43,032 bases of DNA from a virus, in IMG/VR virus record IMGVR_UViG_3300045284_000097, positions 1-43,032 of that record; one strand, 5' to 3'. The notes under the pieces were generated by a model. That model did no database searches and was not told the origin of the DNA. It saw only the letters and a program-made list of their open reading frames with translations. Below, piece by piece: positions 1 through 43,032 of the stretch; the first letter of the stretch is position 1, and each line of letters opens with the position of its first letter. The translations under genes and the position numbers were made by a program.

Positions 1-127
1 TGGCCAAGACGGTCAAGAAGGTCGGGAGCGAGGCGGAGCTGCGGAAGTGGCTGGCGACGGGCCAGTGGTTCGAGACGCCGGGCGATCTCGTCGAGCGGGC
101 CAAGGGGCTCCAGCGGGACATCGAAGT
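1..127. repeat. Terminal direct repeat, left copy (circular assembly overlap)
   Basis: These 127 bases are identical to 42906-43032. The repeat lies inside one open reading frame that continues unbroken when the two ends are joined. An exact 127-base overlap is the usual signature of a de Bruijn assembler closing a circle with k=127. It is therefore better read as circularity than as a biological terminal repeat. Confidence 0.95.
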
Positions 128-4897: not shown

Positions 4898-5713
4898 ATG
4901 GCGATGGCAAACGATGATCCGTGGAACACGCCGGTCGATCCGAGTGATCCGGCGGCGGGAGGCGGGACGGCGCCGGCCGGTGATCCGTGGTCGGCCGATG
5001 AGCGCGGCCAAGCGCAGCAGTGGGCGCAGGACTATGTGACGTCGCATCAGATCCCGGCGTCCTGGGGCAACGCGGACGATCTCGCCAACATCTATCTGCG
5101 GGAGCGACGCAACGGGGCGACGCATGACGCGGCGCTGGCGACGATGCAGAACGGGCCGAACATCAACGGGTGGGCGCAATATGCGGCGCCGACTCCAGGG
5201 GCTCCGGCGCCAGCGTCTCAGCCTCCTGCGGCGGCTCCGGCGCCTGGTGGGGGCGGCGGGACGATCGCGCCGATTACCGGCACGCCGGATTGGTTCCCCA
5301 AGGCACCGACACCGAATCTGCCGACGTTCACGCCGGCTGCGCCGTACCACGATCCGAACTACGCGGACGCGTTGAACGATCCGGGCTATCAGTTCGAGGC
5401 GAGCGAAGGGCAGCGGGCGCTGGAGCAGTCAGCGGCAGCGCGGGGCGTGCTCAATGGCGGCGGGACGCTCAAGGATGTCAGCGCGTGGGGGCAGAACTTC
5501 GCCGCGCAACGCGTGAACGATGTGCGCGATCGGTCGGTGAATAACTACCTGCTCAACTACCAGACGCAGACGGCCGATCCCTACAAGTACGCGTACCAGA
5601 ATGCGCTCGACACGTTCAACGGCAACTACGGAACGTGGCAGACGAACCTGCAGGCGGCGCAGCGGTACGAGGAAGATGTGTGGAACCGGCGGCTCGCAGT
5701 GGGGATGGGCTAG
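4898..5713 (+). CDS. Putative ejection (internal virion) protein
   Basis: The product has 271 residues. The ATG at 4898 follows AGGAGA at proper spacing. Residues 1-45 are Pro/Asp/Ala-rich. A middle linker of Ala/Pro repeats (PASQPPAAAPAPGGGGG) joins a C-terminal domain with DPNYADALNDPGYQFEASEG and SVNNYLLNYQTQTADPYKYA. The latter (Tyr/Asn-rich helices ending in a Trp) recalls a short domain often found in phage internal or tail-associated proteins; that is recall, not a search result. The operon context between two other ejection candidates supports a virion role. Confidence 0.68.
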   Translation: MAMANDDPWNTPVDPSDPAAGGGTAPAGDPWSADERGQAQQWAQDYVTSHQIPASWGNADDLANIYLRERRNGATHDAALATMQNGPNINGWAQYAAPTPGAPAPASQPPAAAPAPGGGGGTIAPITGTPDWFPKAPTPNLPTFTPAAPYHDPNYADALNDPGYQFEASEGQRALEQSAAARGVLNGGGTLKDVSAWGQNFAAQRVNDVRDRSVNNYLLNYQTQTADPYKYAYQNALDTFNGNYGTWQTNLQAAQRYEEDVWNRRLAVGMG

Positions 5714-5721
5714 GGGGCCGC

Positions 5722-7479
5722 ATGGCTGTATACCAATACGCCCCGTACGAAAATCGGTTTGCCGGGTCGATCTCGGACATTCTCGCGCGACGCGGAGACA
5801 TCGCGGCAGCCGCGGCGCAGCGGGCCGGGGTGATCCTGTCGAGCGGGACGCGGGCGATCGGGGACATCCAGGCGCACGGACAGGAGCAGGCCGGGCAAGC
5901 GATGGCCAGCGCGGTCGGTGGGGCGACGCATGCGGTCGGCCAGATCCCGGCGCAGGCGGCAGCACAGACGGCGGCGACGCAGGAATCCACGCTGCGGCAG
6001 GGCGCGATTGACGATCGAGCGCGGCAAGCGGCGGACCTGAAGGCGCTGGATCAGGCGTATCAGGCGAGCGGCGGCAACCGGGACGCGATCATCAATGCGC
6101 TGCCGGGGCATCTCCGGGGCAAGGTGGCGGCGGATTTCGAGACGTTCGACAAGGCGCACGCGGAAGCCGCGGAGCTGCAGCAGAAAGCGGACGCGGCGAA
6201 AACGTCGGCGTTCGCATCGGCGGGCATGGCGATCCGCGGGCATGGCTACGATCCGACGGCGGCGCAGATCACGATTTCCGACATGAAGCGGAAGTACGCG
6301 CAGGACAAGCCGGCGCTGGCGCAGCTCCAGCAGTTCGAGGAGGCGCTGCAGGCGAATCCGTCGCCAGAGACGGTCAAGGCGATGATCGATCCGATCCTGC
6401 AGGCCGATCCCAAGACGCGCGAGGATCTCCAGAAAGAAGCGGCGGACGCAGAGACGAAGCGCGAGCATGATCTCGCGGATACGGCGCGCAAGGCGACGCT
6501 GACGGAACAGCAGAAGCGCGATGAGCAAACGGCGAAGGATGAGGACGCGCGGCGGATCCTCGAGGGCCGGCGCGTGGTGGCGGAGGAGGCGAACGCGCGC
6601 ACGGCGGGCTCGCGTGAGAAGCGGGAGCAGGCCGTCTACGATCAGACATACGGGCAGGGCGGGACGAATCCGGACGGGACGCCGAAGGCGATCCCGATCT
6701 CGGCGACGGCCAAAGCGATCAGCGAGTACAAGATCGCGCCGCTGTCGCCGCGGTCGATGGCGAGCGGCGCCGGCAAGGCGCTGATGGAGCAAGTCATGGC
6801 GGCGAATCCGTCCTATGACGCGACGCAGTTCCCGACGCGCCAGAAGATGCGGATCGGGTATACCTCGGGGCAGCAGTCGCAGCAGCTCGGCTCGCTGAAC
6901 ACGGCGATCGAGCATCTCGGGGTGCTCGACGAGATGGCCAAGGGGCTCGACAATGGGAGCTTCAAGCCGGGGAACGAGTTGTACAACCGGGTGGCGACGC
7001 TGTTCGGCAGTTCGGCGCCGACGAATTTCGCCTTCGCGCGGGACATCATGAGCGGCGAGCTGGCAACCGCCATGAAAAAGAGCGGCGCCACGGACAGCGA
7101 GATCGAGAAGGTCACGAAGTCCTTGGACGGGGCCGGGAGTCCGAAGCAGCTCAGCGACGCGATCCGGGTAGTGGCGTTGCCGATGATCGGCGGCAAGGCG
7201 TCGACGATGCAGCAGCAGTATCGGGCGGTGATGGGCGAACAGGATCCGTTCTCGGTGTATACCCCGGGGGCGAAGGCGGTGCTGGATCGGTTCGGGGCGA
7301 GCCATGAGCCGGCGGCGCCGGGTGGGGGCGGGAAGGGTGGCGGACCGGGCGTGGTCGCGGCTCCTGGGGCGGCTCCAGCCGTCCGGCAGGGCTATGTCCG
7401 TGTGGTCGGGCCGAACGGGGAGTCGGGCCAGATGCCCGCTGGCGGGGCGCTGCCGCCCGGCTGGAAGGTCGTCCAGTAG
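5722..7479 (+). CDS. Putative ejection protein, long coiled coil
   Basis: The product has 585 residues from the ATG at 5722, which follows AGGGGG; an upstream in-frame extension to 5635 is rejected because it overlaps the previous gene. The first 60 residues (QYAPYENRFAGSISDILARR) precede a long Ala/Gln/Lys/Glu helical region to about residue 330, consistent with coiled coil. The region GNELYNRVATLFGSSAPTNF, with DIMSGELATAMKKSGATDSE after it, looks globular. The tail is Gly/Pro-rich and ends VVGPNGESGQMPAGGALPPG, a short motif that I recall from phage internal proteins. P22 gp20 is the positional counterpart. The stop overlaps the next GTG start. Confidence 0.75.
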   Translation: MAVYQYAPYENRFAGSISDILARRGDIAAAAAQRAGVILSSGTRAIGDIQAHGQEQAGQAMASAVGGATHAVGQIPAQAAAQTAATQESTLRQGAIDDRARQAADLKALDQAYQASGGNRDAIINALPGHLRGKVAADFETFDKAHAEAAELQQKADAAKTSAFASAGMAIRGHGYDPTAAQITISDMKRKYAQDKPALAQLQQFEEALQANPSPETVKAMIDPILQADPKTREDLQKEAADAETKREHDLADTARKATLTEQQKRDEQTAKDEDARRILEGRRVVAEEANARTAGSREKREQAVYDQTYGQGGTNPDGTPKAIPISATAKAISEYKIAPLSPRSMASGAGKALMEQVMAANPSYDATQFPTRQKMRIGYTSGQQSQQLGSLNTAIEHLGVLDEMAKGLDNGSFKPGNELYNRVATLFGSSAPTNFAFARDIMSGELATAMKKSGATDSEIEKVTKSLDGAGSPKQLSDAIRVVALPMIGGKASTMQQQYRAVMGEQDPFSVYTPGAKAVLDRFGASHEPAAPGGGGKGGGPGVVAAPGAAPAVRQGYVRVVGPNGESGQMPAGGALPPGWKVVQ

Positions 7480-10070
7480 TGGCCGGGCAGACCCTTCCGG
7501 CCGGGTTTATCCCTGACGTAGCGCCTCCTGGGGCCGTCCAGGGGGCCAAACCGGCGGGGTTCATTCCGGATGGGTTTATCGCGGATCCGGCGCCGGATTT
7601 CCGGTCGAGCAACGATCCGGCGCAGGCGACAGCGTTGGCGGCGAAGCAACGGGCCGACGATGCGGCGGCCGAGGCGGCGAAGCGGCCGTCCTGGCTCCAG
7701 TTGGCCGGCGAGGCGGTGAAGGGGTGGGGCGCCGGGATGAATCCGCTGCCGCTCCTGAAGGCGATGTATGACGATGTCTCCGGGCAGTTCTCGCAGGCGA
7801 TCCAGGACGCGAAGGACGGCAACTTCGGCAAGATGGCCGGCTCGGCTGCCGGGGTGGTCGGGTCGCCGAGTCACGTCCTGCTCGAATCGGTGATCGGCTC
7901 GCACTGGCAGCAGTTCGTCAAGGCCAAGAAGGCGTACGACGCTGGAAGGTATTCAGAGGCGGCCGGGTATACGACGGCGGGGATGGTGCCGCTGCTCGGG
8001 CCGCTGGCGGCGCATGCGGGCGAGGAGATCGGGACAGGGGATCCGCGGACGATGGCGCGGGGCGTCGGCACGGCGGCGGCAGCGCTGGCGCCAGAGTCCG
8101 GGCTGCGGATCGCCGGCAAAGCGCTTGGGGCGGTGTCGGACGTCGGACGGTCGATCGCCGGGGGCGGTCGGCTCAATCCGCTGGAGGAGGCCTCGAACGC
8201 GTTCGCGCGGGAACACGATATCCCGTTGGACGCGGCGACGGCGACGGGTTCGAAGGTGGCGCGAGCGGTGCAGAAGCGGGTGGCGAACTCGATGGGCGGA
8301 GAGGGTGCGGCCGCCGATATGATCACGGCGCAGCGGGAGGCGCTGGCGCGGACGGGTGACAAGCTGGCGAACGAAGCGAACGGCGTCGAAACGGTGACGC
8401 CGGAGTGGACGAAGTGGAACGATCTACGCTCGCGGCGCGCGTCGATGATGGCGAAGCAGAATCCGGGGATGTCGGCGGGCAAGCTGAATGCCGATGCGAT
8501 GGAGTTTGCGGGGCCGGAGCCGGAGAAGTTCACAACTGAGGGTCCGTCGGTCAAGGCGATCGACGCGGGCGAAGGCGTGCGGGGCACGATCCGGACGCTG
8601 ATTACCAATCTGCACGATATGGCGACGAAGGCGTACGGCGAGCTGCGGAAGGCGGAGGCGTCGTCCGCGAATGCCGATACGGTCCCGATCGAGCCGGCGC
8701 CGGTTGATGCGGTCCCGGACTGGCAAAAGCGGCAGCTCCGGCGGATCGTGCATGAGATGGACGCCTCGGGGTATACGGCCGGGCATCTCCAGGACGCCGA
8801 AGCCGGTGATCTCGGGGTCGGCAGCTCCGGCAAAATCTACAATCCGCGGACCGGCGGAGCGGCGGTGTTTCACGATATCCAGGATCACGGCGGGGCCGGG
8901 TTGGACCGTGGCGAGCTCCAGCATGAGATCGAGGTGTATCTCGGCGGGGGCGCAGAGACAGCGGGCGTCAAAGGGGCGCTGGAAGTGGCGCGGCGGCGCT
9001 ACGTGGGCGATGCGAAGCTGTCGGCGCCGGAGCTGCCGTCCTCCGCGTTCGATGTGCCGACGAAGTATGAAGGCGCGCGGGAGTTGTCGCGGCAGATGGC
9101 GATGGCAGTGGATCTGACGGATGTGAAGGCGGCGCTCCGGCCGATCCGGGACCGCATGGCGGCCGGGGCGGACATTGCGCCGCTGATGGGGCCGAAGGCG
9201 GACGCATTCCGGGCGCTGACGCGGATCATCGATGGGCCGAACCATGCGCCGCTCTCGGTGGTGGATGAAGCGCTCGGCGACCTGAAGGCACTGGCGCGCG
9301 GCGGCAAGAACGGGCCGGCGTTGCCGGAGCTCCGGACGGCGGGCGCGGGGACGGCGGCGTATGCCGTGTCGCGGCTCGATGCGATGGTCCGGGCGCGAGC
9401 GGCGCAGGCCGGGCCGGGCGTGCTTGCGGCGCTCGAGGAGGGCCGGGCAGCCACCCGCGAGAAGGTGGCCGCTGGCGATCTGTTCGAGACGTTGCGCGAG
9501 GAGCCGGTGCAGGCGTTCGAGCAGCTCACGGCGCCGGGCGACAAGGGGATCAATCTGCTGCGGTCGATCCGGGACGTGGCGCCGACGCAGATGATGGACG
9601 TGGCGCGGGCGTGGCTGGAGAAGCAGCTCGATCTGGCGCAGCAGGAGGGCGGGTTCGGCCACGCGGATAAGATGTGGGCGAATTGGCAGGCGATGGGCAA
9701 GCAGACGAAGCAGATCCTGTTCTCGGCGCCGGGGCAAACGCAGGCGCTCGATCGGTTCTTCCTCCTGGCGAAGCGCATGGCCGAGAATCCGAATCCCTCG
9801 GGTACGGCGCATACGCTGACGGCGCTGAATGTCGGCTCGGTGCCGGTGATGGCGGGGCTGGCGAAGATGCTGTATACCAAGCGCGGCGTGGATGCGCTGA
9901 CGACGTGGTTGTCGGCCGGGCAGGCTACACGCGGCGCGTCGGCGGGCGCGGGGGCAGGCTCAGCAGCTCGCGCGGCAGCGTGGTTGGGCGTGCGGGCCGC
10001 GGCGCAGCGGGCGGGGTGGTCATTGCCGGCGCAGGCGCCACTCGCGGCCGACGCAGATGAGGGACGATGA
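7479..10070 (+). CDS. Large ejection (internal virion) protein
   Basis: The product has 863 residues and is the largest protein in the window. The GTG at 7479 overlaps the TAG of the preceding gene by one base. The N-terminus repeats PAGFIPD at residues 7-13 and 25-31, with DGFIADP after it, and then becomes amphipathic helix. Ala/Gly-rich hydrophobic patches occur at about 120-200 and 790-840, suiting membrane insertion. P22 gp16 is the positional counterpart. I see no lysozyme or transglycosylase active site. The last gene of the ejection block, it overlaps the fibre gene by four bases. Confidence 0.75.
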   Translation: MAGQTLPAGFIPDVAPPGAVQGAKPAGFIPDGFIADPAPDFRSSNDPAQATALAAKQRADDAAAEAAKRPSWLQLAGEAVKGWGAGMNPLPLLKAMYDDVSGQFSQAIQDAKDGNFGKMAGSAAGVVGSPSHVLLESVIGSHWQQFVKAKKAYDAGRYSEAAGYTTAGMVPLLGPLAAHAGEEIGTGDPRTMARGVGTAAAALAPESGLRIAGKALGAVSDVGRSIAGGGRLNPLEEASNAFAREHDIPLDAATATGSKVARAVQKRVANSMGGEGAAADMITAQREALARTGDKLANEANGVETVTPEWTKWNDLRSRRASMMAKQNPGMSAGKLNADAMEFAGPEPEKFTTEGPSVKAIDAGEGVRGTIRTLITNLHDMATKAYGELRKAEASSANADTVPIEPAPVDAVPDWQKRQLRRIVHEMDASGYTAGHLQDAEAGDLGVGSSGKIYNPRTGGAAVFHDIQDHGGAGLDRGELQHEIEVYLGGGAETAGVKGALEVARRRYVGDAKLSAPELPSSAFDVPTKYEGARELSRQMAMAVDLTDVKAALRPIRDRMAAGADIAPLMGPKADAFRALTRIIDGPNHAPLSVVDEALGDLKALARGGKNGPALPELRTAGAGTAAYAVSRLDAMVRARAAQAGPGVLAALEEGRAATREKVAAGDLFETLREEPVQAFEQLTAPGDKGINLLRSIRDVAPTQMMDVARAWLEKQLDLAQQEGGFGHADKMWANWQAMGKQTKQILFSAPGQTQALDRFFLLAKRMAENPNPSGTAHTLTALNVGSVPVMAGLAKMLYTKRGVDALTTWLSAGQATRGASAGAGAGSAARAAAWLGVRAAAQRAGWSLPAQAPLAADADEGR

Positions 10071-11347
10071 AAGGGATCTCGATGAGGAGAAGCAGCACGA
10101 TCGCGGCGGCGGTGATTGTGGGCATGGGGCTGATGGTACCGCAGGCGCTCGCGCAAGGCTCGCTGACGCCGACAGCCTATCAGACAATCCAGGACAGCAA
10201 TGGCATTCCGATCGTGGGGGCGTGCATCTGGACGTACCTGGCGGGCACCTCGACGCCGACGGCGACGTATACCGCGAAGTTGGCGACGGTGCCGAATACG
10301 AATCCGATCATCACGGATAGCGCGGGGCAGTTCGTCGCGTACTTGCTGCCGGGCCAGTCCTATAAGTTCGTGTTTGAGACGGCGTGCGCGCCTCCAGCGC
10401 ATGGGGCGGTGCTGCGGACGCAGGATGGGATCGACGCGACGTTAGGGACGTTTAGCGCGGCCGTGGTCGGGGATGAATCGGTGACGATTCGGAATACCAC
10501 GCCCGGGGTCGCGAATCGCGCGGTGTTGTTCGTCGGGAACGATACATCGGCGACGCTCGGCACGCTGGCGGCGCACTCCAGCACGTTCACGACGTTGGGG
10601 GCGGCGATTGCGAACGGCGTCAAGCTGACATCCAGTGGTGTCGGTGGGCTCTCGCTCCAGGCGTCCGATGCGACGGGGATCATTCATTTCTTCACCGGGA
10701 CGGGGACGGTTGAGCGCGGGCAGATCACGGCGGCTGGGCTGTTCAACTGGTCGACGTTCGGCGCGCATCAGTTCACCTCGGGCGCGGTCGGCGTGAATAC
10801 GCTTACGGTGGCGAACACGTCAGCGGGCGCTGGGAACTCGGCGCGCGCGTCGGCGGCGAGCGATACGGTGACGAGCGTGATGGACGCCTACAGTTCGACG
10901 TGGACGACGGTCGGCGCGCAAGTGCAGGCGGGGACAATGTTCTCGGGGAACGGGGTGGGCGGGGTATCGCTGGCGGCGTTCAATGCGGCCGGGGCCGTGC
11001 GGATCTACACCGGGAGTGGGACGCTGCGCGCGACGTTCGACGCGGCGGGGAACTTCAACCTCGGCTCGACGAACATTATGGACAGTCCAGCGGTGCCGAC
11101 CTCCAGTGGCGTGACGGGAGGTACGATCACGGTGACCGGGCGGGCCACTGCGTTTCGGGCCGCGGTGACATCGGGGACCGTGACGAGTTTCAGTGTCAAT
11201 TTCAATACGACCTATACGACGAAGCCGGTCTGTGTGGCATCGGGGGATGGTGGGCCACCGAAAACGATCTCGTCTACGACAGATGTCACGGTCACGATGT
11301 CGCCTGGAGCCGTCACAGAAGTCAACGTACTGTGCCGTGGCTTTTAA
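10067..11347 (+). CDS. Fibre/tailspike-position protein with Sec signal peptide
   Basis: The product has 426 residues from 10067, or 421 from the ATG at 10082, which has the better ribosome site (AAGGGA). Residues 6-30 form a textbook signal peptide: two Arg, the hydrophobic core IAAAVIVGMGLMV and an ALA-type cleavage site before QGS. The mature part begins with a domain (AYQTIQDSNGIPIVGACIWT, then LPGQSYKFVF) typical of phage tail-fibre N-termini. Repetitive beta segments follow, and the C-terminus (VNFNTTYTTKPVCVASGD, final VNVLCRGF) resembles two other secreted proteins of this phage. The location after the ejection genes is the tailspike slot of P22. A signal on a virion fibre is odd. Confidence 0.8.
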   Translation: MKGISMRRSSTIAAAVIVGMGLMVPQALAQGSLTPTAYQTIQDSNGIPIVGACIWTYLAGTSTPTATYTAKLATVPNTNPIITDSAGQFVAYLLPGQSYKFVFETACAPPAHGAVLRTQDGIDATLGTFSAAVVGDESVTIRNTTPGVANRAVLFVGNDTSATLGTLAAHSSTFTTLGAAIANGVKLTSSGVGGLSLQASDATGIIHFFTGTGTVERGQITAAGLFNWSTFGAHQFTSGAVGVNTLTVANTSAGAGNSARASAASDTVTSVMDAYSSTWTTVGAQVQAGTMFSGNGVGGVSLAAFNAAGAVRIYTGSGTLRATFDAAGNFNLGSTNIMDSPAVPTSSGVTGGTITVTGRATAFRAAVTSGTVTSFSVNFNTTYTTKPVCVASGDGGPPKTISSTTDVTVTMSPGAVTEVNVLCRGF

Positions 11348-18040: not shown

Positions 18041-18298
18041 ATGCGTAGCAAGATGATCGGGCGGGATCAGCGGGACGCGGCGTTCGCGCGGGCGCAGGCG
18101 ATTCTCCGGCCGGAGGTGGTGCCGTATGCGTCGGTCACGATCGTCAAGGCCGACGGTACCGAGGTGGTGGTAGGGGAGCAGATCTCTTGTGGTTGCTGTC
18201 GTGGTCCTATTGGCGATCGGTGCTGCTGCTGGAATCATCGGGATGAGCCACGCGGGATCTTCGTCAAGACGTGTACGCGGCATGGAGCGGGCCGATGA
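18041..18298 (+). CDS. Small cysteine-rich protein
   Basis: The product has 85 residues. ATG at 18041 is preferred over TTG at 18032 because the GGAGGGG site would abut the latter. The N-terminus is basic and helical. The second half holds CGCCRGPIGDRCCCWNH and CTRH, a likely zinc-binding cluster. I recognise no family. It overlaps the next gene by four bases (ATGA). Confidence 0.65.
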   Translation: MRSKMIGRDQRDAAFARAQAILRPEVVPYASVTIVKADGTEVVVGEQISCGCCRGPIGDRCCCWNHRDEPRGIFVKTCTRHGAGR

Positions 18299-18495
18299 AG
18301 GCGCCAACGCACTACATCCCGCCGTTTACGCGGGTGAACGGTCGGCAGCAGGAGACGGTGTGCGGGCTGTGGATCCGCGAGCGGGAGTTCTCGCGGGAGC
18401 CGACGTGTGCGCGGTGTCAGGCGTGGCTGGTGCAGTCGGCGGTCGAGGACGCGGAGACGGCGAAGGGGTTCGGTCTCACGGAAGGGGTGAAGTGA
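18295..18495 (+). CDS. Small zinc-binding protein
   Basis: The product has 66 residues from ATG at 18295, which overlaps the preceding TGA. It has TVCGLW and TCARCQAWL, a CxxC-type arrangement, with a HY near the start. Proteins of this size with HxxxxxTxCG...CxxC are common and uncharacterised in phage early regions. Its TGA shares one base with the ATG of the pentapeptide gene. Confidence 0.65.
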   Translation: MKAPTHYIPPFTRVNGRQQETVCGLWIREREFSREPTCARCQAWLVQSAVEDAETAKGFGLTEGVK

Positions 18496-19340
18496 TGGCC
18501 ATACGCACGATCGTCAATCGCTGGTCCGGTACGGTGCTATGGAGCGGGGAAGCGACAAGTGCGAAGGATGCGCTCCGGCAGGCGAGGGCGGCCGGCTCGA
18601 ACCTGCGCGGCTCGGACCTGAGCGGCTCGGACCTGCGCGACTCGGACCTGCGCGGCTCGGACCTGAGCGGCTCGAACCTGCGCGGCTCGGACCTGCGCGA
18701 CTCGGACCTGCGCGGCTCGGACCTGCGCGACTCGGACCTGAGCGGCTCGGACCTGAGCGGCTCGGACCTGAGCGGCTCGAACCTGCGCGACTCGAACCTG
18801 CGCGACTCGGACCTGCGCGACTCGAACCTGCGCGGCTCGGACCTGAGCGGCTCGGACCTGAGCGGCTCGGACCTGCGCGGCTCGAACCTGCGCGACTCGG
18901 ACCTGCGCGACTCGGACCTGCGCGGCTCGGACCTGCGCGGCTCGGACCTGCGCGGCTCGGACCTGCGCGACTCGAATCTGAGCGGCTCGGACCTGCGCGG
19001 CTCGGACCTGCGCGACTCGGACCTGCGCGGCTCGGACCTGCGCGACTCGGACCTGCGCGGCTCGGACCTGCGCGACTCGGACCTGAGCGGCTCGGACCTG
19101 AGCGGCGACAAGATCGCGGCAGCGGGCGAAGCCGCGACGCGATCGGACGGGTACGAGTTCCGCGCGTTCGTGCTCCAGGCTGGTGGGATCAAGATCAAGG
19201 CGGGCTGTCGATGGTTCACGCCGGAGGAGGCGCGGGCGCATTGGACGGCAACGCGTGGCGGGACGCGGTTGGGCGATGAGTCGCTGGCGATCGTGGAGCA
19301 TCTGGAACGCATGGCGGCGATCGCGGCGGTGGTCCGATGA
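18495..19340 (+). CDS. Pentapeptide-repeat protein
   Basis: The product has 281 residues. Residues 34-203 are 34 uninterrupted five-residue repeats with consensus (G/D)-S-(D/N)-L-(R/S). This is a right-handed quadrilateral beta helix of the A(D/N)LXX class in which Ser replaces the usual Ala. Residues 1-33 form an N-terminal cap (IRTIVNRWSGTVLW). Residues 215-281 form a separate domain (FRAFVLQAGGIKIKAGCRWF, then THWTATRGG-like and GDESLAIVEHL). Some family members mimic DNA and protect gyrase; nothing here proves that. The uniform repeats point to expansion by slippage. Confidence 0.9.
   Translation: MAIRTIVNRWSGTVLWSGEATSAKDALRQARAAGSNLRGSDLSGSDLRDSDLRGSDLSGSNLRGSDLRDSDLRGSDLRDSDLSGSDLSGSDLSGSNLRDSNLRDSDLRDSNLRGSDLSGSDLSGSDLRGSNLRDSDLRDSDLRGSDLRGSDLRGSDLRDSNLSGSDLRGSDLRDSDLRGSDLRDSDLRGSDLRDSDLSGSDLSGDKIAAAGEAATRSDGYEFRAFVLQAGGIKIKAGCRWFTPEEARAHWTATRGGTRLGDESLAIVEHLERMAAIAAVVR
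18594..19103 (+). repeat. Tandem 15-bp repeats, 34 units
   Basis: Units of 15 bases with consensus GGCTCGGACCTGCGC or GACTCGGACCTGAGC encode the pentapeptide tract. Only a few positions vary: codon 1 GGC/GAC, codon 3 GAC/AAC, codon 5 CGC/AGC. The near identity predicts length variation between isolates and makes assembly of this stretch uncertain. Long open frames in the other five frames here are by-products of the repeat. Confidence 0.95.
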
Positions 19341-33670: not shown

Positions 33671-34203
33671 TGGGACGCGAGGAACAGGCCAAAGCGGAGC
33701 GCGCGGAGTTGCGGCGTGCCGTGGTCGACGAAGCCCTCGGGCGGGTGTCGGAGCTCGAGGAGAAGATCGCCGCGCACAAGAAGATCATCAACCGGCAAGG
33801 TGTCGCGATGGAGGCGATGGCGAACGCGATCACGGCGTTCAGCCGGGATGTGATGGCGTTGCAGGCAGAGGCGCGGCGGCCTCGGGGTTGGCGGCGGTTG
33901 GTGGCATACATCCGAGGCGTGGCGGCAGAAGTGCGCGAGGAGCAGGTGCTCGCGGATCGGCGCGCGGCGGTCAAGGCTCGGGGGACGGTGACGATCACGC
34001 GGGCGCCGGAGCTGGAGCCAACGGAGATGCTGAAGCCGGCGGAGGCGCCGCCACGGCCGAGTCATCTGCACCAGTACGAGAAGGACGGGCCGTTCCTGTA
34101 TCGCTGCACGGTCGAGGGGTGTGGGCGGCGGGCGTCGATGGATGAGATCTCGGCGGAGTCGGCGTATTTGCTGAAGGTGGCGGCCGGGTCAACGGAGCAC
34201 TAG
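33670..34203 (+). CDS. Coiled-coil protein with C-terminal zinc site
   Basis: The product has 177 residues. Residues 1-60 form a charged coiled coil (SELEEKIAAHKKIINRQG). Residues 130-160 contain HLHQYEKDGPFLYRCTVEGC, a His/Cys cluster common in phage neck-region proteins. The portal gene begins one base after its TAG. It might assist terminase-portal interactions; this is inference. Confidence 0.6.
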   Translation: MGREEQAKAERAELRRAVVDEALGRVSELEEKIAAHKKIINRQGVAMEAMANAITAFSRDVMALQAEARRPRGWRRLVAYIRGVAAEVREEQVLADRRAAVKARGTVTITRAPELEPTEMLKPAEAPPRPSHLHQYEKDGPFLYRCTVEGCGRRASMDEISAESAYLLKVAAGSTEH

Positions 34204-36690
34204 ATGGCCGACGAGTACGACGCCAGCGCGGGGGAGCCGGAGCCGGACGAAGAGAACGAACCGTCCGAACCGGATTACAGCTCGAAGGGCGCGGCAGGCG
34301 ATCATCAGCTGGCGCTCGAACGGCTCCAGGTAGCGGCGTCGGCGGTATGGCGGCAAGCGGAGCGCGAGAAGGCGGCGCTGCGATATCAAGTGCCGGCGCT
34401 GATGTGGTCGACGGACGCGAAAAGCTGGCGCGCGGGCGAGGATCTCGGCGGCGGGATCGTGATGCCGGATCGCCCGATGATTGCGATCCCGAAGATCGAG
34501 CAGGCGGTGCGGCTGGTGCTCAACCAGGAGCGCGCGGCGCATCTCGGCGTGACGTTTCATCCGGAGTCGGAGACGGCGGAGGATGAGACGGCGGAGACGA
34601 TGACCGGGCTGTATCGGCAGATCGATCGCGAGTCGCGGGCGGGGCTGGCGCGGTCCTGGGGGTTCAATCGGGCCGTGAAGGCGGGCCGCGGCGCGTGGCG
34701 GGTCGTGACGGAGCCGGCGGCCGACTACGAGCAGACGAAGGATCAGAACATCCGGATCAAGCGGATTCTGTATCAGGATGCGGTCTACTTCGATCCGTTC
34801 GCGACGGAGCCGGATTTCTCGGACGGCGAGCACGCGTTCGTGCTCGAGTGGGTGTCGTGGGCGAAGTACAGGCAGCTCTACAAACGGGTAAAGAAAACGA
34901 ACGCGGAGACGGGCAAGGTTGAGGATCTGCCGTCGGCGTTGGCGGAGATGTCGGATGGCGATCTGACGAAGCTGGCGGAGGATGCGCCGGAGTGGATCCG
35001 CGGCGAAGGCGAGGCCCGGGCGGTGCTGGTGGCGGAGTACCTCTGTATCGAGCGGCGGCCGAAGGCGGCACGCGAGGCCAAGAAAGCGGGTTGGCTGGCC
35101 GATGAGCAGCGGCGGACGCGCTCGCGGTGGATGAACGCGGTGGAATTCATGAACGACGCGATCATCCACGCGGCCTATATTCCGGTGATACCGACGATCG
35201 GTGAGGAGCTGATCCCGTTCGACAACGAGCGGCGATGGGTCGGGATGTACGAACCGAACACGGACGCGCAGAACGTGTTCAACTACGCGGCGAGTAACGC
35301 GGTCGAGTCGATGGCGCAGGAGCCGCGCTCGACGTGGGTCATTGCGGAAGGGCAGGAAGTCGGCCATGAGCGCGAGCTGCTGCTGGCGAACATCCGGAAT
35401 TTCCCGTATGTCCGGTACAAGCCGACGGCGCTCGGCGATCATCTGGTGCCGGAGCCGAAGCGGACGCAGGTCGATAGCTCAAAGCTCGGCATGTCGATGG
35501 AGATGCTGAGCATGGCGGATCAGTGGATCCACTCGGGGACGGCGTTCTTCGAACCCTCGCTCGGCAAAAGCTCGCCGAACGTGAAAACGAAGGGTGGGAC
35601 GCTGGCGCTCCAGCAACAGGGGGATCAGAGCAATTCGCACTGGCTCGACAACCAGGCGGAGCTGTCGATGCAGTACGAAGCGCGGGTGATCCTGTCGATG
35701 ATTCCGTTCTACTACGATCGGCCGGGGCGGACGGCGCGCGTGCTCGGGGCGGAGGATAAGGATTCCAAGCCGGTCATTCTCAACCGGCCGTATGAGATGC
35801 AGGGTAAGCGCCCGCGAGCGTTGCCGTTCGGGACGCCGGAGGAGAAGCGGGCAGCGTTGGCGCGGGTGTCCGATCCGAATGACGCGGCGACGCTGCACAA
35901 TCTCCGGAACGGCGGGGTCTACGGGCTGACCGTCGAAGTCGGCAAGGGGTACAAATCGCGCGTCGATCAGGGCGCGGACGAACTCGGCCAGCTGTTCCAG
36001 GCGGAGCCGCAGTTGTTTCAGCTGCTCGGCGATATCTACCTGCGGTTCCGGGATTTCCCGGGCCACGAAGAAGCGGCCGACCGCATCCACAAGATGTTGC
36101 CGCCACAGCTCCAGGATCAGCAGGACGGGCAGGATCCAAAGATCCAGCTGGAGCAGGCGAAGCAGGCGCTCCAGGCGATGCAGGCGAAGCTCCAGGAGCT
36201 GGAGCCGGAACGGATGAAGGCACAGACGCAGCAGTTGATCGCGAAGCTCAAGTCGGATACGGACAAAGCAATCAAGCTCGCCGATGTGCAGATCCAGATC
36301 ATGAAGGATGCGACGTCGGTGGCGGTGGCGGAGATCGGCGCGATGGCGAAGGGTGTGCAGTCTGCGGATCTGGAGACGATGAAGGCGGCGGCGCTGGCGA
36401 CGCAGCATGCGTCCGATCATGTGGAAGCGGCGAAGCAGCGGGCGCATGAAGCCGGGATGGCGGCGGCGGCGGCGCTCGGCGGACAGGTGGCGTCGGAAGC
36501 CGATCATCAGCGCGGGCTGGAGGCCGGCGACGCGGCGCATCAGCAGGCGCTGGAGCAGGGCGCGGCGGCCGGCGATCAAGCGCGCGCGACGCAGGCGGAA
36601 GGGGCGCAGCAGGGACAGGAGGCCGCAGCGCAGGCTGCGGAGCTAGCGCCGGCTGCGCCGGCTGGCGGCGAGGCGGACACAGGAGGGTAG
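34204..36690 (+). CDS. Portal protein, P22-like
   Basis: The product has 828 residues. Recognisable portal segments: MIAIPKIEQAVRLVLNQERA, WGFNRAVKAGRGAWRV, YQDAVYFDPFATEPDFSDGE, WVGMYEPNTDAQNVFNYAAS and GGTLALQQQGDQSNSHWLDN. Residues 640-828 are long Gln/Ala helices (QAKQALQAMQAKLQELEPE), the equivalent of the P22 portal barrel. It forms the dodecameric ring through which TerL packs DNA and to which the gp4-like adaptor binds. Length exceeds P22's 725 residues mainly through the C-terminal helical tail. Confidence 0.93.
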   Translation: MADEYDASAGEPEPDEENEPSEPDYSSKGAAGDHQLALERLQVAASAVWRQAEREKAALRYQVPALMWSTDAKSWRAGEDLGGGIVMPDRPMIAIPKIEQAVRLVLNQERAAHLGVTFHPESETAEDETAETMTGLYRQIDRESRAGLARSWGFNRAVKAGRGAWRVVTEPAADYEQTKDQNIRIKRILYQDAVYFDPFATEPDFSDGEHAFVLEWVSWAKYRQLYKRVKKTNAETGKVEDLPSALAEMSDGDLTKLAEDAPEWIRGEGEARAVLVAEYLCIERRPKAAREAKKAGWLADEQRRTRSRWMNAVEFMNDAIIHAAYIPVIPTIGEELIPFDNERRWVGMYEPNTDAQNVFNYAASNAVESMAQEPRSTWVIAEGQEVGHERELLLANIRNFPYVRYKPTALGDHLVPEPKRTQVDSSKLGMSMEMLSMADQWIHSGTAFFEPSLGKSSPNVKTKGGTLALQQQGDQSNSHWLDNQAELSMQYEARVILSMIPFYYDRPGRTARVLGAEDKDSKPVILNRPYEMQGKRPRALPFGTPEEKRAALARVSDPNDAATLHNLRNGGVYGLTVEVGKGYKSRVDQGADELGQLFQAEPQLFQLLGDIYLRFRDFPGHEEAADRIHKMLPPQLQDQQDGQDPKIQLEQAKQALQAMQAKLQELEPERMKAQTQQLIAKLKSDTDKAIKLADVQIQIMKDATSVAVAEIGAMAKGVQSADLETMKAAALATQHASDHVEAAKQRAHEAGMAAAAALGGQVASEADHQRGLEAGDAAHQQALEQGAAAGDQARATQAEGAQQGQEAAAQAAELAPAAPAGGEADTGG

Positions 36691-36694
36691 CACC

Positions 36695-37054
36695 ATGCAT
36701 TTTGACTGGCGCAAGTTTGCAAAGATCGCCGAATTGGTCGGGCCGATCGCGCTCGCGGCGGCCGGGGTGCCGCCGACCGCGACGGCGTTGGTGATTCATG
36801 GGATCCAGATCGCGGAACAGGTCGGCGAGGCCAAGGGGCTGAACGGCGCGCAGAAGAAAGAGATCGCAATGGACGCGGTGACGACGGGGCTGGCGGCCGT
36901 CAACGCGGCGAGGCCGGGCACGGTCAGCGTGCCGGAGCTGACCGGCGTGGTCAGCGAGGGGATCGATCTGACGGTGAAGGCTATCCAGGCCGGGAAGAAC
37001 ATCCCGCTGTCGCCGGAGATGCTGCCGGGTCAGGTGCAGGGCGGCCCGATCTAG
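36695..37054 (+). CDS. Small helical phage protein, possibly membrane-associated
   Basis: The product has 119 residues. ATG at 36695 follows AGGAGGGT. It contains KIAELVGPIALAAAGVPPTA, a hydrophobic stretch, then LNGAQKKEIAMDAVTTGLAA and an amphipathic end. The KG.xKK..A.DAV..G..A.N pattern occurs in small phage proteins, some annotated as holin-like; that label is uncertain here, since it lies amid head genes. Confidence 0.6.
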   Translation: MHFDWRKFAKIAELVGPIALAAAGVPPTATALVIHGIQIAEQVGEAKGLNGAQKKEIAMDAVTTGLAAVNAARPGTVSVPELTGVVSEGIDLTVKAIQAGKNIPLSPEMLPGQVQGGPI

Positions 37055-37132
37055 GGGCAGCGCGGGTAATCTGCAAAGATCTCGCCGTTGGGCGTATAGT
37101 GGCTACGCGGCTCACGGTTTCTGGAGGTGGTG

Positions 37133-37600
37133 ATGGTGACACGGCGCGCATTCATGGGCGGGCTGTTGGGTGTGGTGGCGGCGTTGGCGGTGACGCCAGC
37201 GATCGAGGCCTCGCCGACTGCGGCGCCGGCCGTACCCCTGGAGACGGGCGGCGAGGCGTTGCAGGTCGGGGATGTGTTCACGATCCAAGGCCGGTATGCG
37301 GTCAATCCGATCACGCACAAGTCGACGGGCGTGCTTCAGCGGTTCGTCGTGACGCAGACGACATCGGCGAAGGCCATCGCGGCGTCGCCGAACAATGCCT
37401 GGAGTTCCGACAAGAAGGGTGTACGGCCGCTGTTCTATCCTCCGATGGTTGGGGCGGGTGAATATCAGAACGTCACCGATGCGTCGCCGTTCCAGGCGTC
37501 GGACATCCAGCCGGGCGTGTGGCTGCCGACGGGGGTGACGTTCCATCCGGAGGCGTTCTCGATGACGATGCAGCCGTTGGCCGTTCGGGTGCTGCATTGA
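37133..37600 (+). CDS. Tat-signal protein carrying a stand-alone coat I-like domain
   Basis: The product has 155 residues. ATG at 37133 follows GGAGG. Residues 1-26 form a twin-arginine-type signal: TRRAFMGG, a hydrophobic core and a cleavage region near IEAS. Residues 44-148 are clearly homologous to residues 252-354 of the coat protein at 40093: GDVFTIQGRYAVNP matches GDVFTIGAGATGVFAINP, LQRFVVT matches LQQFVVT, FYPPMVGAGEY matches IYPPIIATGAY and FHPEAFSM matches FHPSAFVM. The region is the inserted domain of P22-type coats. A separate exported copy is unexpected. A TATAGT at 37095 might serve as its promoter. Confidence 0.85.
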   Translation: MVTRRAFMGGLLGVVAALAVTPAIEASPTAAPAVPLETGGEALQVGDVFTIQGRYAVNPITHKSTGVLQRFVVTQTTSAKAIAASPNNAWSSDKKGVRPLFYPPMVGAGEYQNVTDASPFQASDIQPGVWLPTGVTFHPEAFSMTMQPLAVRVLH

Positions 37601-37881
37601 AGGGCCGGGCGCAGGCGGGGTCGATCCGGGCGATGGCAGCGGCGAACGATCCGCGTGTGGGCGGCGGTGGTGAGCGCCGGGCGGACGTGGCGATCCGGCG
37701 AGCGAACGATCCGCGGGTCGTACCGGACCGTGGCGCGACGCGGCAGATGGCGGCAGCCAACGATCCGCGGGTGACATCCGGGAAGGCGTCCACGGCGGCG
37801 CGGGGTCGAGCCGACGATCCGAGGGTCGGCACGCATCCGGGCCGTAATCTGGGGAAGTTCTTACATCGGGGGAAGCGATGA
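37597..37881 (+). CDS. Small basic protein with DPRV repeats
   Basis: The product has 94 residues if the TTG at 37597, which overlaps the previous TGA, is used; an ATG at 37633 would give 82. The motif DPRV occurs four times (AAANDPRV, RRANDPRV, AAANDPRV, GRADDPRV), spaced 16-22 residues, in a flexible Arg/Gly-rich background. The end is GRNLGKFLHRGKR. Short linear repeats of this kind suggest binding to a repeated partner such as the capsid or portal ring. I recognise no family. It overlaps the next gene by four bases. Confidence 0.55.
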   Translation: MKGRAQAGSIRAMAAANDPRVGGGGERRADVAIRRANDPRVVPDRGATRQMAAANDPRVTSGKASTAARGRADDPRVGTHPGRNLGKFLHRGKR

Positions 37882-38240
37882 AGCGAACGATCGCGGCGCT
37901 CGTGATGTGTCTCGCGCTGGCGGCCGTGGCGCTGCAGGCGGTGTCGTTCATTTCGTTCGAGCAGCTCACGGTGGCGGCGTCGTCTACGCCCTTCACGGCA
38001 GCGAAGGTCGAGCCGGATCTGTCGGGCGGGTCGCGGCAGGCGGACACGGCGCAATGTCGGCTGGAGGTGGCGGAGATTCGCTACACGATCGACGGGACGC
38101 CGCCGACTGCGGCGGTCGGTACCCTGCTGGAGATCGGCGATGTGCTGGTGATCAGCGGGCACGATTCGATCATGCGATTTCGCGGGTTTCGGACAGGGGC
38201 CTCGTCGGGGATTCTTGATTGTACGTACTCGGCCAAGTGA
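37878..38240 (+). CDS. Exported/anchored capsid-decoration-like beta protein
   Basis: The product has 120 residues. Residues 1-25 (MKRTIAALVMCLALAAVALQ) are a signal peptide or membrane anchor. Residues 55-120 hold VAEIRYTIDGTPPTAAVGTL, LEIGDVLVISGHDSIMRFRG and a final LDCTYSAK. This is a widespread small phage virion domain (xRYxxDGTxPTAxxGxxL...GDxxxI...IxxFRxIR), usually cytoplasmic and lacking a signal, from memory. It probably forms a beta sandwich. The added signal is odd. Confidence 0.75.
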   Translation: MKRTIAALVMCLALAAVALQAVSFISFEQLTVAASSTPFTAAKVEPDLSGGSRQADTAQCRLEVAEIRYTIDGTPPTAAVGTLLEIGDVLVISGHDSIMRFRGFRTGASSGILDCTYSAK

Positions 38241-38893
38241 TGAAGGCTAGAACGCGCTGGATCGCGGTCGCGCTGACGCTCGGGCTGAGCGCTGTGGTGA
38301 TCGCGCAGCCGCCGGCTACGATCACGCCCGCGCTGGCTGGTGTCGCGTCGCTGTTGACGTTCGGAGCGCCGGTCGATACCGGGATCAGCAGGACGGCGGC
38401 GGGGACGGTGGCCGTTGGCAACGGCACGCAGGGCGATACGAGTGGCACCCTCGTTGTCCTCAATTTACTTGCGACCGGGAACATCTCCACGAGCACCGGG
38501 GGGGCCTTTACCTGGAACAGCATCACCAAGTCCGCGATCCGCAGTTCGTCCGATGGCGTCATGTCGTTCGAGAACCTCGGGTCCACCACCGGATCCAAAA
38601 TCAAGGTTGACGCGCTGCCGACGGTGGCCTCGGGCTTCGGCACGTCCCCGGCTGTCACGGCAGGGAGCACACCCTTCGCCGGCTCGATCAACGTCGGGAC
38701 AGGCGCGCCGGGCACCGGCGGGGTGATCAACTTCAACGGCACGGCTTTTCCGTCGGCGCCGTTCGTGGTCTGTCAGGATGATTCCTCGCTCTTGGTGGTG
38801 CGCTGCACGGCGACAACGACGCAGATGACGATCGCGGCTACGGCGTTGACGGCCAGTGACGTAGTGTCGTGGATCGCCATAAGTAGCAAGTGA
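38240..38893 (+). CDS. Secreted fibre-like protein
   Basis: The product has 217 residues from the ATG at 38240, which overlaps the previous TGA; the TTG at 38219 is less likely. Residues 1-22 (MKARTRWIAVALTLGLSAVV) are a Sec signal with cleavage near VIAQ. The middle has repeats of GNGTQGDTSGTL and STGGAFTWNS type, seen in phage fibres. Residues 155-217 (VINFNGTAFPSAPFVVCQDD, then MTIAATALTASDVVSWIA) share a fold with the C-termini of the proteins at 10067 and 42014. Confidence 0.72.
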   Translation: MKARTRWIAVALTLGLSAVVIAQPPATITPALAGVASLLTFGAPVDTGISRTAAGTVAVGNGTQGDTSGTLVVLNLLATGNISTSTGGAFTWNSITKSAIRSSSDGVMSFENLGSTTGSKIKVDALPTVASGFGTSPAVTAGSTPFAGSINVGTGAPGTGGVINFNGTAFPSAPFVVCQDDSSLLVVRCTATTTQMTIAATALTASDVVSWIAISSK

Positions 38894-40092: not shown

Positions 40093-41316
40093 ATGCCGAA
40101 CACAATCCAGACGCCGACATGGATGGCACGTAAGGTGCTCATGGTCGCGTCGAATACGATCCGGTTCGTCGGCGCAATCACGAAAAAACTGTCGGAGGAT
40201 TTCATCGCCGAGGGCGTGAAGCTCGGCGCGCAGATCAACGTCCGACTGCCGCAGCGCTTCACCACCACCAAGGGCCAGGCGATCCAGATGCAGGCGCTGG
40301 TCGATACCCTGGTGCCGATCACCATCACGGATCAGGCGAACATCGCGTGGGGCTGGTCATCGTTCTCTGGGACGCTGGAGATCCAGGACGCGGAGGATCG
40401 GTACATCGAGCCGGCCGGGATCCAGCTGGCGAACACGTACGACGCGGACGGGTTGGCGCGGTGCTATCAGGATGTGTTCTCGGTCGAGGGCACGCCGGGC
40501 ACGATCCCGAACGCGAACAGCACGTACCTGAACGCGGCGGCCAGGCTGACGAACTTCGCGGCACCGCAAGGGCCGCGGCGGGCGCTGGTCAATGCGCTGA
40601 TGCGCGCGGCGATCGCCAATGCGAATCTGTCACTGTTCAATCCGCAGGCGCAGATTAGCAAAACTTGGACGAACGGCATGTGGTCCGGGGCGGCGCTGTC
40701 GTGGGATCAGTGGTACGAGGACGTGAACGTGTTCCCGCACGTCGTCGGGCCGCTCGGGGGCACGCCGACGGTGAACGGCGCGAACCAGACCGGGCTGTCC
40801 TTGATTACGCAGGCGTGGACGGCGGCGGCGGCGCTCCGGCTCAAGAAGGGCGACGTGTTCACGATCGGCGCGGGCGCGACGGGCGTCTTTGCGATCAATC
40901 CGCAGAACTACCGCTCCACGACGCAGCTGCAGCAGTTCGTCGTGACGGCGGATACGAGCTCGAGCGCTGGCGGCGCGGCGACGATTCCGATCTATCCGCC
41001 GATCATCGCGACGGGCGCGTATGCGACGGTCGATTCGCTGCCGGCCTCGGGGGCGACGATCAACGTGTTCGGCGCGGCGAATACGGTGACGCCGCAGGGG
41101 CTCGGGTTCCATCCGTCGGCGTTCGTGATGGCCTCGGCCAATCTGATGATGCCGAATCAGGGCAAGGCCAAGCGCGTCCGGATGAAGGATATCTCGATGG
41201 CGCTGCGCTTCTGGGAAGGCTCGGACATCATGACGGATCAGCATCCGTCACGGTTGGACGGGATCTACGGTTTTAAAACACAGAGGCCAGAATTCTCAGT
41301 AAGATTCGCAAGTTGA
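40093..41316 (+). CDS. Major capsid (coat) protein, P22 gp5-like
   Basis: The product has 407 residues. It begins MPNTIQTPTWMARKVLMVAS and has the HK97-fold E-loop and spine segments (INVRLPQRFTTTKGQAIQMQ, then ALVDTLVPITITDQANIAWG). Residues 252-354 (KGDVFTIGAGATGVFAINPQ to FHPSAFVM) correspond to the inserted I-domain of P22-type coats, and the remainder (RVRMKDISMALRFWEGSDIM, then DGIYGFKTQRPE) closes the A-domain. Length is close to P22 gp5 (430). No maturation protease is encoded nearby, which fits P22-type assembly. It shares its I-like domain with the gene at 37133. Confidence 0.9.
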   Translation: MPNTIQTPTWMARKVLMVASNTIRFVGAITKKLSEDFIAEGVKLGAQINVRLPQRFTTTKGQAIQMQALVDTLVPITITDQANIAWGWSSFSGTLEIQDAEDRYIEPAGIQLANTYDADGLARCYQDVFSVEGTPGTIPNANSTYLNAAARLTNFAAPQGPRRALVNALMRAAIANANLSLFNPQAQISKTWTNGMWSGAALSWDQWYEDVNVFPHVVGPLGGTPTVNGANQTGLSLITQAWTAAAALRLKKGDVFTIGAGATGVFAINPQNYRSTTQLQQFVVTADTSSSAGGAATIPIYPPIIATGAYATVDSLPASGATINVFGAANTVTPQGLGFHPSAFVMASANLMMPNQGKAKRVRMKDISMALRFWEGSDIMTDQHPSRLDGIYGFKTQRPEFSVRFAS

Positions 41317-42013: not shown

Positions 42014-42586
42014 ATGAACAACTTGCTGTCTCGGCGGGGCGTGTGGCTCGGGGCGCTGTTGCTGGCGGTGTGCGGCGCGTTGGGCGCAGCGATCGCCGAG
42101 GCGCAGGTCCAAACCAGTACGGGCGGAGTGTTCCAGCCCTTGCTGTCGTACGTGGTCGAAGGCGTCTGGACGTTCAAGGGCGCGGCGCCGCTCAAGTTCG
42201 AGGGCGCGACGAACGACGGGATCGCGATGACGATCGCGGTCCCGGATCCGACGGTGGCGGGTACGCTGACGCTGCCGTCGGCGACGGGCGGGGTACCCGT
42301 GGTGCTGGATTGCGGCGCGACGGGCGTCGGGAACCAAACGTGTGCGCCGGTCACAGCGACGGCGGCGACGAAGTTCTACGTGGGCACTTCGACGCTGGCC
42401 ACGAATGCGGCCGTGATCACGTTCCCGACGGCATTCGCGGCGATCACGTCCTATCAGTGCATCGGGCAGGACATCACGACGCGAGCCAATCCGGTGCAGA
42501 TGATCTCGACCTCGACGACGACGGCGACGATCACGAATACCACCGGCGCATCGGACGTGATCAACTGGATCTGTGCCGGGTACTGA
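42014..42586 (+). CDS. Secreted fibre-like protein
   Basis: The product has 190 residues. Residues 1-31 form a signal peptide (SRRGVWLGALLLAVCGALGA, with AEA before QVQ); SRRGVW also resembles a twin-arginine motif. The mature part has beta strands and two Cys. The C-terminal 60 residues (VITFPTAFAAITSYQCIGQD, then ATITNTTGASDVINWICAGY) align with the end of the 38240 protein: VI(T/N)F...AF, a Cys, then ASDV(I/V)xWI. It lies between head genes. A receptor-binding or surface-display role is speculation. Confidence 0.72.
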   Translation: MNNLLSRRGVWLGALLLAVCGALGAAIAEAQVQTSTGGVFQPLLSYVVEGVWTFKGAAPLKFEGATNDGIAMTIAVPDPTVAGTLTLPSATGGVPVVLDCGATGVGNQTCAPVTATAATKFYVGTSTLATNAAVITFPTAFAAITSYQCIGQDITTRANPVQMISTSTTTATITNTTGASDVINWICAGY

Positions 42587-42598
42587 AGGAGAGTGGTG

Positions 42599-43032
42599 AT
42601 GGAGACGGAACTCGGCGAACGGCTCCGGCGCTTGGAGATGGAGCTGGAAGCGCTCCAGCGGATCAAGACGCAGGAGGATTATGACGAAGGGGCGCGGCTG
42701 CACGCGCTCCACAACGCGCCGTGGGTCAAAGGGCAGTACTCGCATCTGGAGTTCCAGCCCTACACGTTCCAGGCGTTTCCGATGGCGATCTACGGCGTCG
42801 GCTACCTCGAGGCGCGGCGGGACCGGGACGCGGCGGACCTGATCCCGGCGTTCGGCCAGGTCGATACGGAGCGGGCGCAGGCGATCCTGGTGGCCGATCG
42901 CGAGCTGGCCAAGACGGTCAAGAAGGTCGGGAGCGAGGCGGAGCTGCGGAAGTGGCTGGCGACGGGCCAGTGGTTCGAGACGCCGGGCGATCTCGTCGAG
43001 CGGGCCAAGGGGCTCCAGCGGGACATCGAAGT
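42599..43032 (+). CDS. Neck/head-associated protein, N-terminal part (gene wraps the ends)
   Basis: ATG at 42599 follows AAGGAGAG. The joined gene continues at base 128 and encodes about 215 residues. The N-terminus is a coiled coil (GERLRRLEMELEALQRIKTQ). Residues 44-80 (KGQYSHLEFQPYTFQAFPMA, then IYGVGYLEARRDRD) carry an FPMAIY motif like YPKALY in the neighbour at 304. The role is probably virion assembly or neck, inferred from position before the terminator and gp4-like gene. Confidence 0.75.
   Translation, partial: METELGERLRRLEMELEALQRIKTQEDYDEGARLHALHNAPWVKGQYSHLEFQPYTFQAFPMAIYGVGYLEARRDRDAADLIPAFGQVDTERAQAILVADRELAKTVKKVGSEAELRKWLATGQWFETPGDLVERAKGLQRDIE
42906..43032. repeat. Terminal direct repeat, right copy (circular assembly overlap)
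   Basis: Identical to bases 1-127. Removing one copy leaves a circle of 42,905 bp and restores the gene that begins at 42599. Confidence 0.95.

Follow-up and report, generated by a model that had tools for sequence, protein, structure and literature searches.

A stand-alone coat I-domain protein with a probable export signal in a P22-like phage

What does a P22-like phage do with a second, free-standing version of the I-domain of its own coat protein, and why would this version begin with an export-type signal? We examined this question in the window, the whole 43,032-nucleotide stretch of DNA that was analyzed (IMG/VR virus record IMGVR_UViG_3300045284_000097). The two ends of the window (1-127 and 42906-43032) are identical over 127 bases, and the phage contigs L001 and L191 span the join; thus, the window probably represents an entire genome that was assembled as a circle.

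Sequence, fold and descent of the I-domain protein

The gene in question lies downstream of the portal gene and upstream of the coat gene, in the following surroundings.

34204 to 36690, plus strand: portal protein (PF16510, 2.4e-93)
36695 to 37054, plus strand: upstream gene of 119 aa with weak holin-family matches (PHROG 2609, E 0.007; PHROG 608, E 0.018)
37123 to 37127, plus strand: Shine-Dalgarno GGAGG, 5 nt upstream of the ATG of the I-domain gene
37133 to 37600, plus strand: gene of the stand-alone I-domain protein, ATG start, 155-aa product, recognized by its coat match, a shuffle test and orthologs in L001 and L084
37211 to 37597, plus strand: mature I-domain-like part, residues 27-155, with a fold match over residues 33-131 (AlphaFold2, Foldseek, VIA-align)
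37597 to 37881, plus strand: small basic ORF downstream of the I-domain gene, with ANDPRV repeats and a TTG start that overlaps the I-domain gene stop
40093 to 41316, plus strand: coat protein of the P22 gp5 type (Pfam PF11651, 1.9e-19; PHROG 283, 8.6e-58)
40840 to 41130, plus strand: coat residues 250-346, the counterpart of the stand-alone protein (BLASTP)

A shadow ORF was ruled out by the GC content at the three codon positions (0.63/0.51/0.83), which is as in other genes, together with the conservation of the frame, and an assembly artifact was ruled out because the gene is flanked by the same neighbors in contigs of separate samples. A consensus search found no promoter for the I-domain gene itself. 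The 155-aa product has no HK97-fold shell domain, so the I-domain is not inserted in a coat here.

The first-pass annotation of this locus had aligned residues 44-148 of the small protein with residues 252-354 of the phage's own coat, and this alignment is borne out: by BLASTP, residues 43-144 match coat residues 250-346 with 37% identity (53.5 bits, E 2e-13), and the shared blocks that it listed (GDVFTI, NP, LQxFVVT, YPP and FHPxAF) are all found in the stand-alone protein. The local score against the coat is 136, compared to 34 +/- 5.5 (maximum 70) when the mature part was shuffled 2,000 times (z 18), and a profile comparison was also significant, in that a two-allele profile matched 28 coat I-domains over residues 41-150 (hhalign probability 99.3, E 4.5e-20). 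Thus, BLASTP, the shuffle z and the profile-profile match together indicate that the resemblance to the coat is real and far beyond chance. Against family models, the protein matched PHROG 283 ("major head protein") at 6e-6 and scored 14.8 bits with Pfam P22_CoatProtein (PF11651), under the 24-bit gathering cut-off. The sequence match begins at about the second I-domain strand of the coat, the first strand being unrecognizable by sequence, and on its C-terminal side it extends beyond the I-domain into the next coat strand (FHPEAFSMTMQPL); thus, the stand-alone domain was not cleanly excised.

We modeled the protein with AlphaFold2 from 35 aligned sequences taken from the window and loci. The model was middling (mean pLDDT 68.5), with ten-residue means of 74-91 over residues 41-130 and poorly modeled stretches in the first 37 residues and the last 25 residues (pLDDT 50-63). 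Foldseek nevertheless ranked the CUS-3 I-domain and CUS-3 coat at the top, followed by the P22 and Sf6 coats (E 0.012, probability 1.00), and VIA-align gave Z of 4.2-7.0 over 76-79 residues with the P22, CUS-3 and Sf6 coats, compared to at most 2.2 with unrelated chains. In this comparison, model residues 33-131 correspond to P22 gp5 223-344, which is the whole I-domain, and the model puts residues 33-41 at the first I-domain strand. The predicted structure thus supports the kinship with the coat domain that the first reading had proposed, and the protein as modeled has the I-domain beta-barrel fold. When the I-domain of the phage's own coat was modeled likewise as a control, it reached Z of up to 12.9 to Sf6 and P22, compared to 7.0 for the stand-alone protein; thus, the stand-alone barrel is weaker or reduced. 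From the sequence and predicted fold, we consider it virtually certain that the stand-alone protein descends from a coat I-domain.

We also observed that the own coat I-domain (40726-41178) resembles the second domain of the T5 distal tail protein pb9 (Z 8.3) and is matched by PHROG 1302 (4e-8), suggesting that coat and tail proteins share a barrel. This pb9 domain was matched by the coat I-domain control, whereas the stand-alone protein matched coat families instead.

In a tree of I-domains, the stand-alone pair formed a separate branch (100/100) that is long and of unsure position. The suggestion that the gene is a duplicated coat fragment is refuted in one respect: a recent copy of the phage's own present coat is rejected (sisterhood with that coat alone, AU p 0.0096), while sisterhood with the wider own-coat clade (L002-L005 coats) is allowed (AU p 0.14). 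The branch may reflect an old split, fast-running evolution, or a source in the coat of another phage.

Alleles and absence among sister phages

Orthologs of the I-domain gene are found in the same gene order in contigs from other samples (L001, 1420-1848; L084, 2911-3339). The ortholog's product is only 68% identical to the window protein (32% difference), with indels that are all multiples of three, whereas the coats of the phages bearing the two alleles are 99.5% identical. The second allele keeps the twin-arginine-type signal.

We compared the window with L001 for rates of change. The dN/dS was 0.086 for the coat and 0.56 for the I-domain gene, compared to 0.21 and 0.38 for neighbor genes with similar dS; within the I-domain gene, it was 0.31 for the signal, 0.79 for the mature part and 0.90 for the loops (residues 75-132). 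Over the whole gene, purifying selection is detected (synonymous versus nonsynonymous, p 0.012; dS 0.40), while the mature-part value of 0.79 is indistinguishable from 1, such that diversifying selection and weak constraint are not separable there. Based on the occurrence of two alleles among three contigs, each from a separate sample, the frame-preserving indels and the p value of 0.012, we conclude that this is a real gene, and it is very probably functional.

The gene is also missing from a sister phage. L191 has DNA 93-96% identical to the window and a coat 99% identical to its coat, and it matches the window over 33837-37136 and then from 37602 onward, such that precisely the I-domain ORF is missing and the slot's ribosome-binding site and ATG open into the small downstream ANDPRV-repeat ORF. 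We judged this absence at the slot and its sequenced surroundings in L191. Direct repeats that might explain the exact absence were not seen by eye around the slot. The gene is thus a dispensable, optional cassette, which L191 may have lost or the other phages may have gained. In L002, whose coat is 85% identical, the scaffold follows directly after the portal with no I-domain gene in between. The ANDPRV-repeat ORF itself is kept in both L084 and L191, with varying numbers of repeat copies.

These results bear on whether the gene might be a decaying by-product, a coat fragment that recombined behind a signal and is now drifting without function. While the mature-part dN/dS, the indels in the loops and the absence from L191 would all suit such a fragment, the frame has been kept in two alleles at a dS of 0.40 under detectable purifying selection, the signal and core blocks are conserved, and the long separate branch implies long persistence; we therefore regard decay as very improbable. 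Moreover, the strong divergence of the alleles in phages whose coats are nearly identical argues against a partner that is the coat and for one that is variable or weakly constraining, and the precise absence from a sister phage together with the allelic diversity is more in keeping with an accessory than with a structural role. The first-pass proposal of a decoration subunit is weakened for the same reason, since a 32% difference between the alleles stands against nearly invariant coats to be bound.

A probable Tat signal and other signal-bearing late proteins

The N-terminus of the I-domain protein and four further late proteins of the window carry predicted signals.

37133 to 37210, plus strand: predicted twin-arginine-type signal, residues 1-26, with TRRAF, hydrophobic GGLLGVVAALAV and a possible cleavage site IEA/S
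37878 to 38240, plus strand: signal peptide joined to a protein family whose members in other phages, also located between portal and coat, have no signal at the start
38240 to 38893, plus strand: signal peptide; two Cys in the mature part
42014 to 42586, plus strand: signal peptide with SRR; four Cys; end weakly like Gp53-like_C (E 0.16)
10067 to 11347, plus strand: signal peptide ahead of a tail-fiber-type N-terminus; four Cys

We called these signals by inspection of the sequence and an ad hoc heuristic rather than by a trained predictor. The N-terminus of the I-domain protein (MVTRRAFMGGLLGVVAALAVTPAIEA) combines T-R-R-x-F with a core of moderate hydrophobicity and a plausible -3/-1 cleavage site, and the Tat consensus (S/T-R-R-x-F ahead of a hydrophobic stretch) is present in both alleles as TRRAF and GGLLGVVA. 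Moreover, 20 of the 26 signal residues are identical in the other allele, even though its synonymous sites have changed a great deal (dS 0.57), and the signal's low dN/dS is significant (p 0.04). The NCBIfam TAT model TIGR01409 gave 14.3 bits (E 0.04) on the window allele, short of its cut-off of 16.7, and no match on the other allele. Thus, the twin-arginine-type signal that had been proposed stands as to its motif, which is kept in the second allele, and falls short in the TAT model; we consider the N-terminus a probable Tat signal, and the protein is likely to be exported. The window protein has no Cys, and hence no lipobox Cys of the kind seen in Llp; a mature part without Cys suits a protein that folds in the cytoplasm.

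Alternatively, the protein might be cytoplasmic or internal to the virion, and its hydrophobic N-terminus might serve something other than export, for instance as a membrane-active leader at ejection or lysis. The subthreshold TIGR01409 score and the weak holin-type matches of the upstream neighbor are in line with this alternative. We consider it quite unlikely, given that all three signal regions and the -3/-1 site are present at the N-terminus, and that the proteins at 37878-38240 and 10067-11347 carry signals newly set before families that lack them elsewhere.

Relatives of those two proteins begin at the start of the mature part, with the signal absent. The Cys residues after the signals number 2, 2, 4 and 4 in the four proteins, in the order listed above, and most signal-less relatives of the fiber-type protein have no Cys in the matched part, while several have one or two. 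By the ad hoc heuristic, 5 of 12 genes in L001 were signal-like, compared to about 5% in other loci, although one of the five is a doubtful holin-like gene. The presence of signals on four non-lysis late proteins supports the view that this phage lineage may export them. More broadly, and only tentatively, the lineage might route a virion-surface-type set (the coat domain, the portal-region family and the fiber-type protein) outward through fused signals, such that the coat domain would cross by Tat in folded form and act, or join virions, outside the cytoplasm.

As a separate observation, the region of the second of these proteins (38219-38893) is only 78-82% identical among otherwise near-identical phages (the L001, L084 and L191 copies), which makes the portal-scaffold interval a variable spot.

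Possible roles and known systems

Our preferred reading, somewhat short of probable, is that the gene encodes an exported accessory I-domain protein of a P22-like phage that acts outside the cytoplasm as a decoy or blocker. We infer export, route, partner and effect as follows. A coat I-domain would have been separated from the HK97-fold shell and have acquired a twin-arginine-type signal; its barrel would fold in the cytoplasm and then cross the inner membrane, most likely by Tat, such that the protein would reside in the periplasm until lysis releases it into the medium. It would there meet a partner that differs between hosts or competing phages, and as a free coat-surface domain it might occupy whatever binds the coat of progeny phages after release or of a related phage on arrival. 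The dispensability of the gene, its two alleles and its failure to vary in step with the coat incline us toward a decoy or blocker. Adsorption of P22-type phages is by the tail, so there is no known receptor for the coat to be decoyed, which counts against a decoy. Taken by itself, the specific role of decoy or blocker is doubtful.

The strongest alternative is a virion accessory that joins late: the protein would be exported with the other four signal-bearing proteins, kept in the periplasm, and added as an optional capsid decoration during or after lysis. We are aware of no decoration protein that leaves the cytoplasm before it attaches, which counts against this alternative, as does the 32% difference between alleles, which is unexpected for a protein that binds coats as similar as these. 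Conversely, the fiber-type protein and the portal-coat-region family suggest that virion-surface parts are routed outward, and a loop of the I-domain contributes to contacts between coat subunits (PMC9965877). The decoration proteins phage L Dec, T4 Hoc and T4 Soc are likewise small, dispensable and related to the capsid surface, and the review that covers decoration proteins describes no export signals for them (PMC7602432). On balance, we consider a late-joining virion part unlikely.

A second alternative is receptor masking or superinfection exclusion, in which the protein would stay in the envelope, with the signal as an uncleaved anchor, or lodge in the periplasm. Phage exclusion factors in general, such as T5 Llp and lambda-type morons, are alike in kind, and the I-domain gene is small, dispensable, allelic, signal-bearing and present or absent between sister phages. 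This gene sits in a late structural block, which is less usual for exclusion genes, and the window allele lacks both a lipobox Cys and a promoter-like site of its own; we find exclusion distinctly unlikely. Among known signal-bearing accessory envelope proteins, T5 Llp and lambda Lom, the latter encoded near or among the tail genes (PMC12309495), resemble the I-domain protein in their signals, but neither is derived from a coat domain.

The I-domains of P22-type coats (P22 gp5, CUS-3 and Sf6; PDB 6mnt, 8skg and 2m5s) have the same sequence blocks and barrel as those found or predicted here, whereas the stand-alone protein is not inserted in a coat, has an export-type signal and includes, at its C-terminal end, the coat strand that follows the I-domain. 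The P22 I-domain sits within the A-domain as an insertion, and its D-loop shifts slightly on maturation (PMC9965877); isolated P22 and CUS-3 I-domains fold by themselves (PMC11243222). An analogy from outside phages can also be drawn. Hepatitis B e-antigen is a capsid-derived viral protein secreted via a signal sequence. It shares no homology with the I-domain protein, comprises nearly the whole core protein, and is a product of the same gene in an animal virus.

The first-pass annotation knew of no phage system of this type, and our searches bear this out for the collections covered. No other stand-alone I-domain appeared among the tblastn matches listed from 50,697 phage records, where the convincing matches either bore a coat or major head protein annotation or were hypothetical proteins, which we take to be coats based on identical position and score in near-identical phages. 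Likewise, none was found in 36 viral records (searched whole), in 80 and 79 coat loci, in 23 bacterial-genome loci, or in plasmids, which held one P22-type capsid at E of about 1. Among the matches listed from the phage, viral, plasmid and bacterial collections, scanned by short peptide patterns, which distant copies may escape, I-domains outside coats were only this gene and its orthologs. A literature search, in which subscription journals were thinly covered, found neither an exported coat domain nor a Tat signal in phage structural proteins. Thus, a known domain is found in a new, stand-alone and apparently exported setting.

If the export is real, a tailed phage exports part of its own shell protein, as a free domain, beyond the cytoplasm, and either something outside recognizes the phage coat or virions are finished outside the cell; to our knowledge, neither has a precedent among tailed phages. 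A ready comparison is offered by the two alleles and by the natural pair of phages with and without the gene, and the pattern of signals newly fused to virion-type proteins, with the extra Cys of the fiber-type protein, is directly searchable in other phages.

Elsewhere in the window, we noted a predicted tRNA-Pro (cgg) at 7374-7466, within the end of the ORF at 5635-7479, and an ORF at 18189-19340 that is rich in SDLRGSDLRD-type repeats and resembles pentapeptide-repeat proteins.
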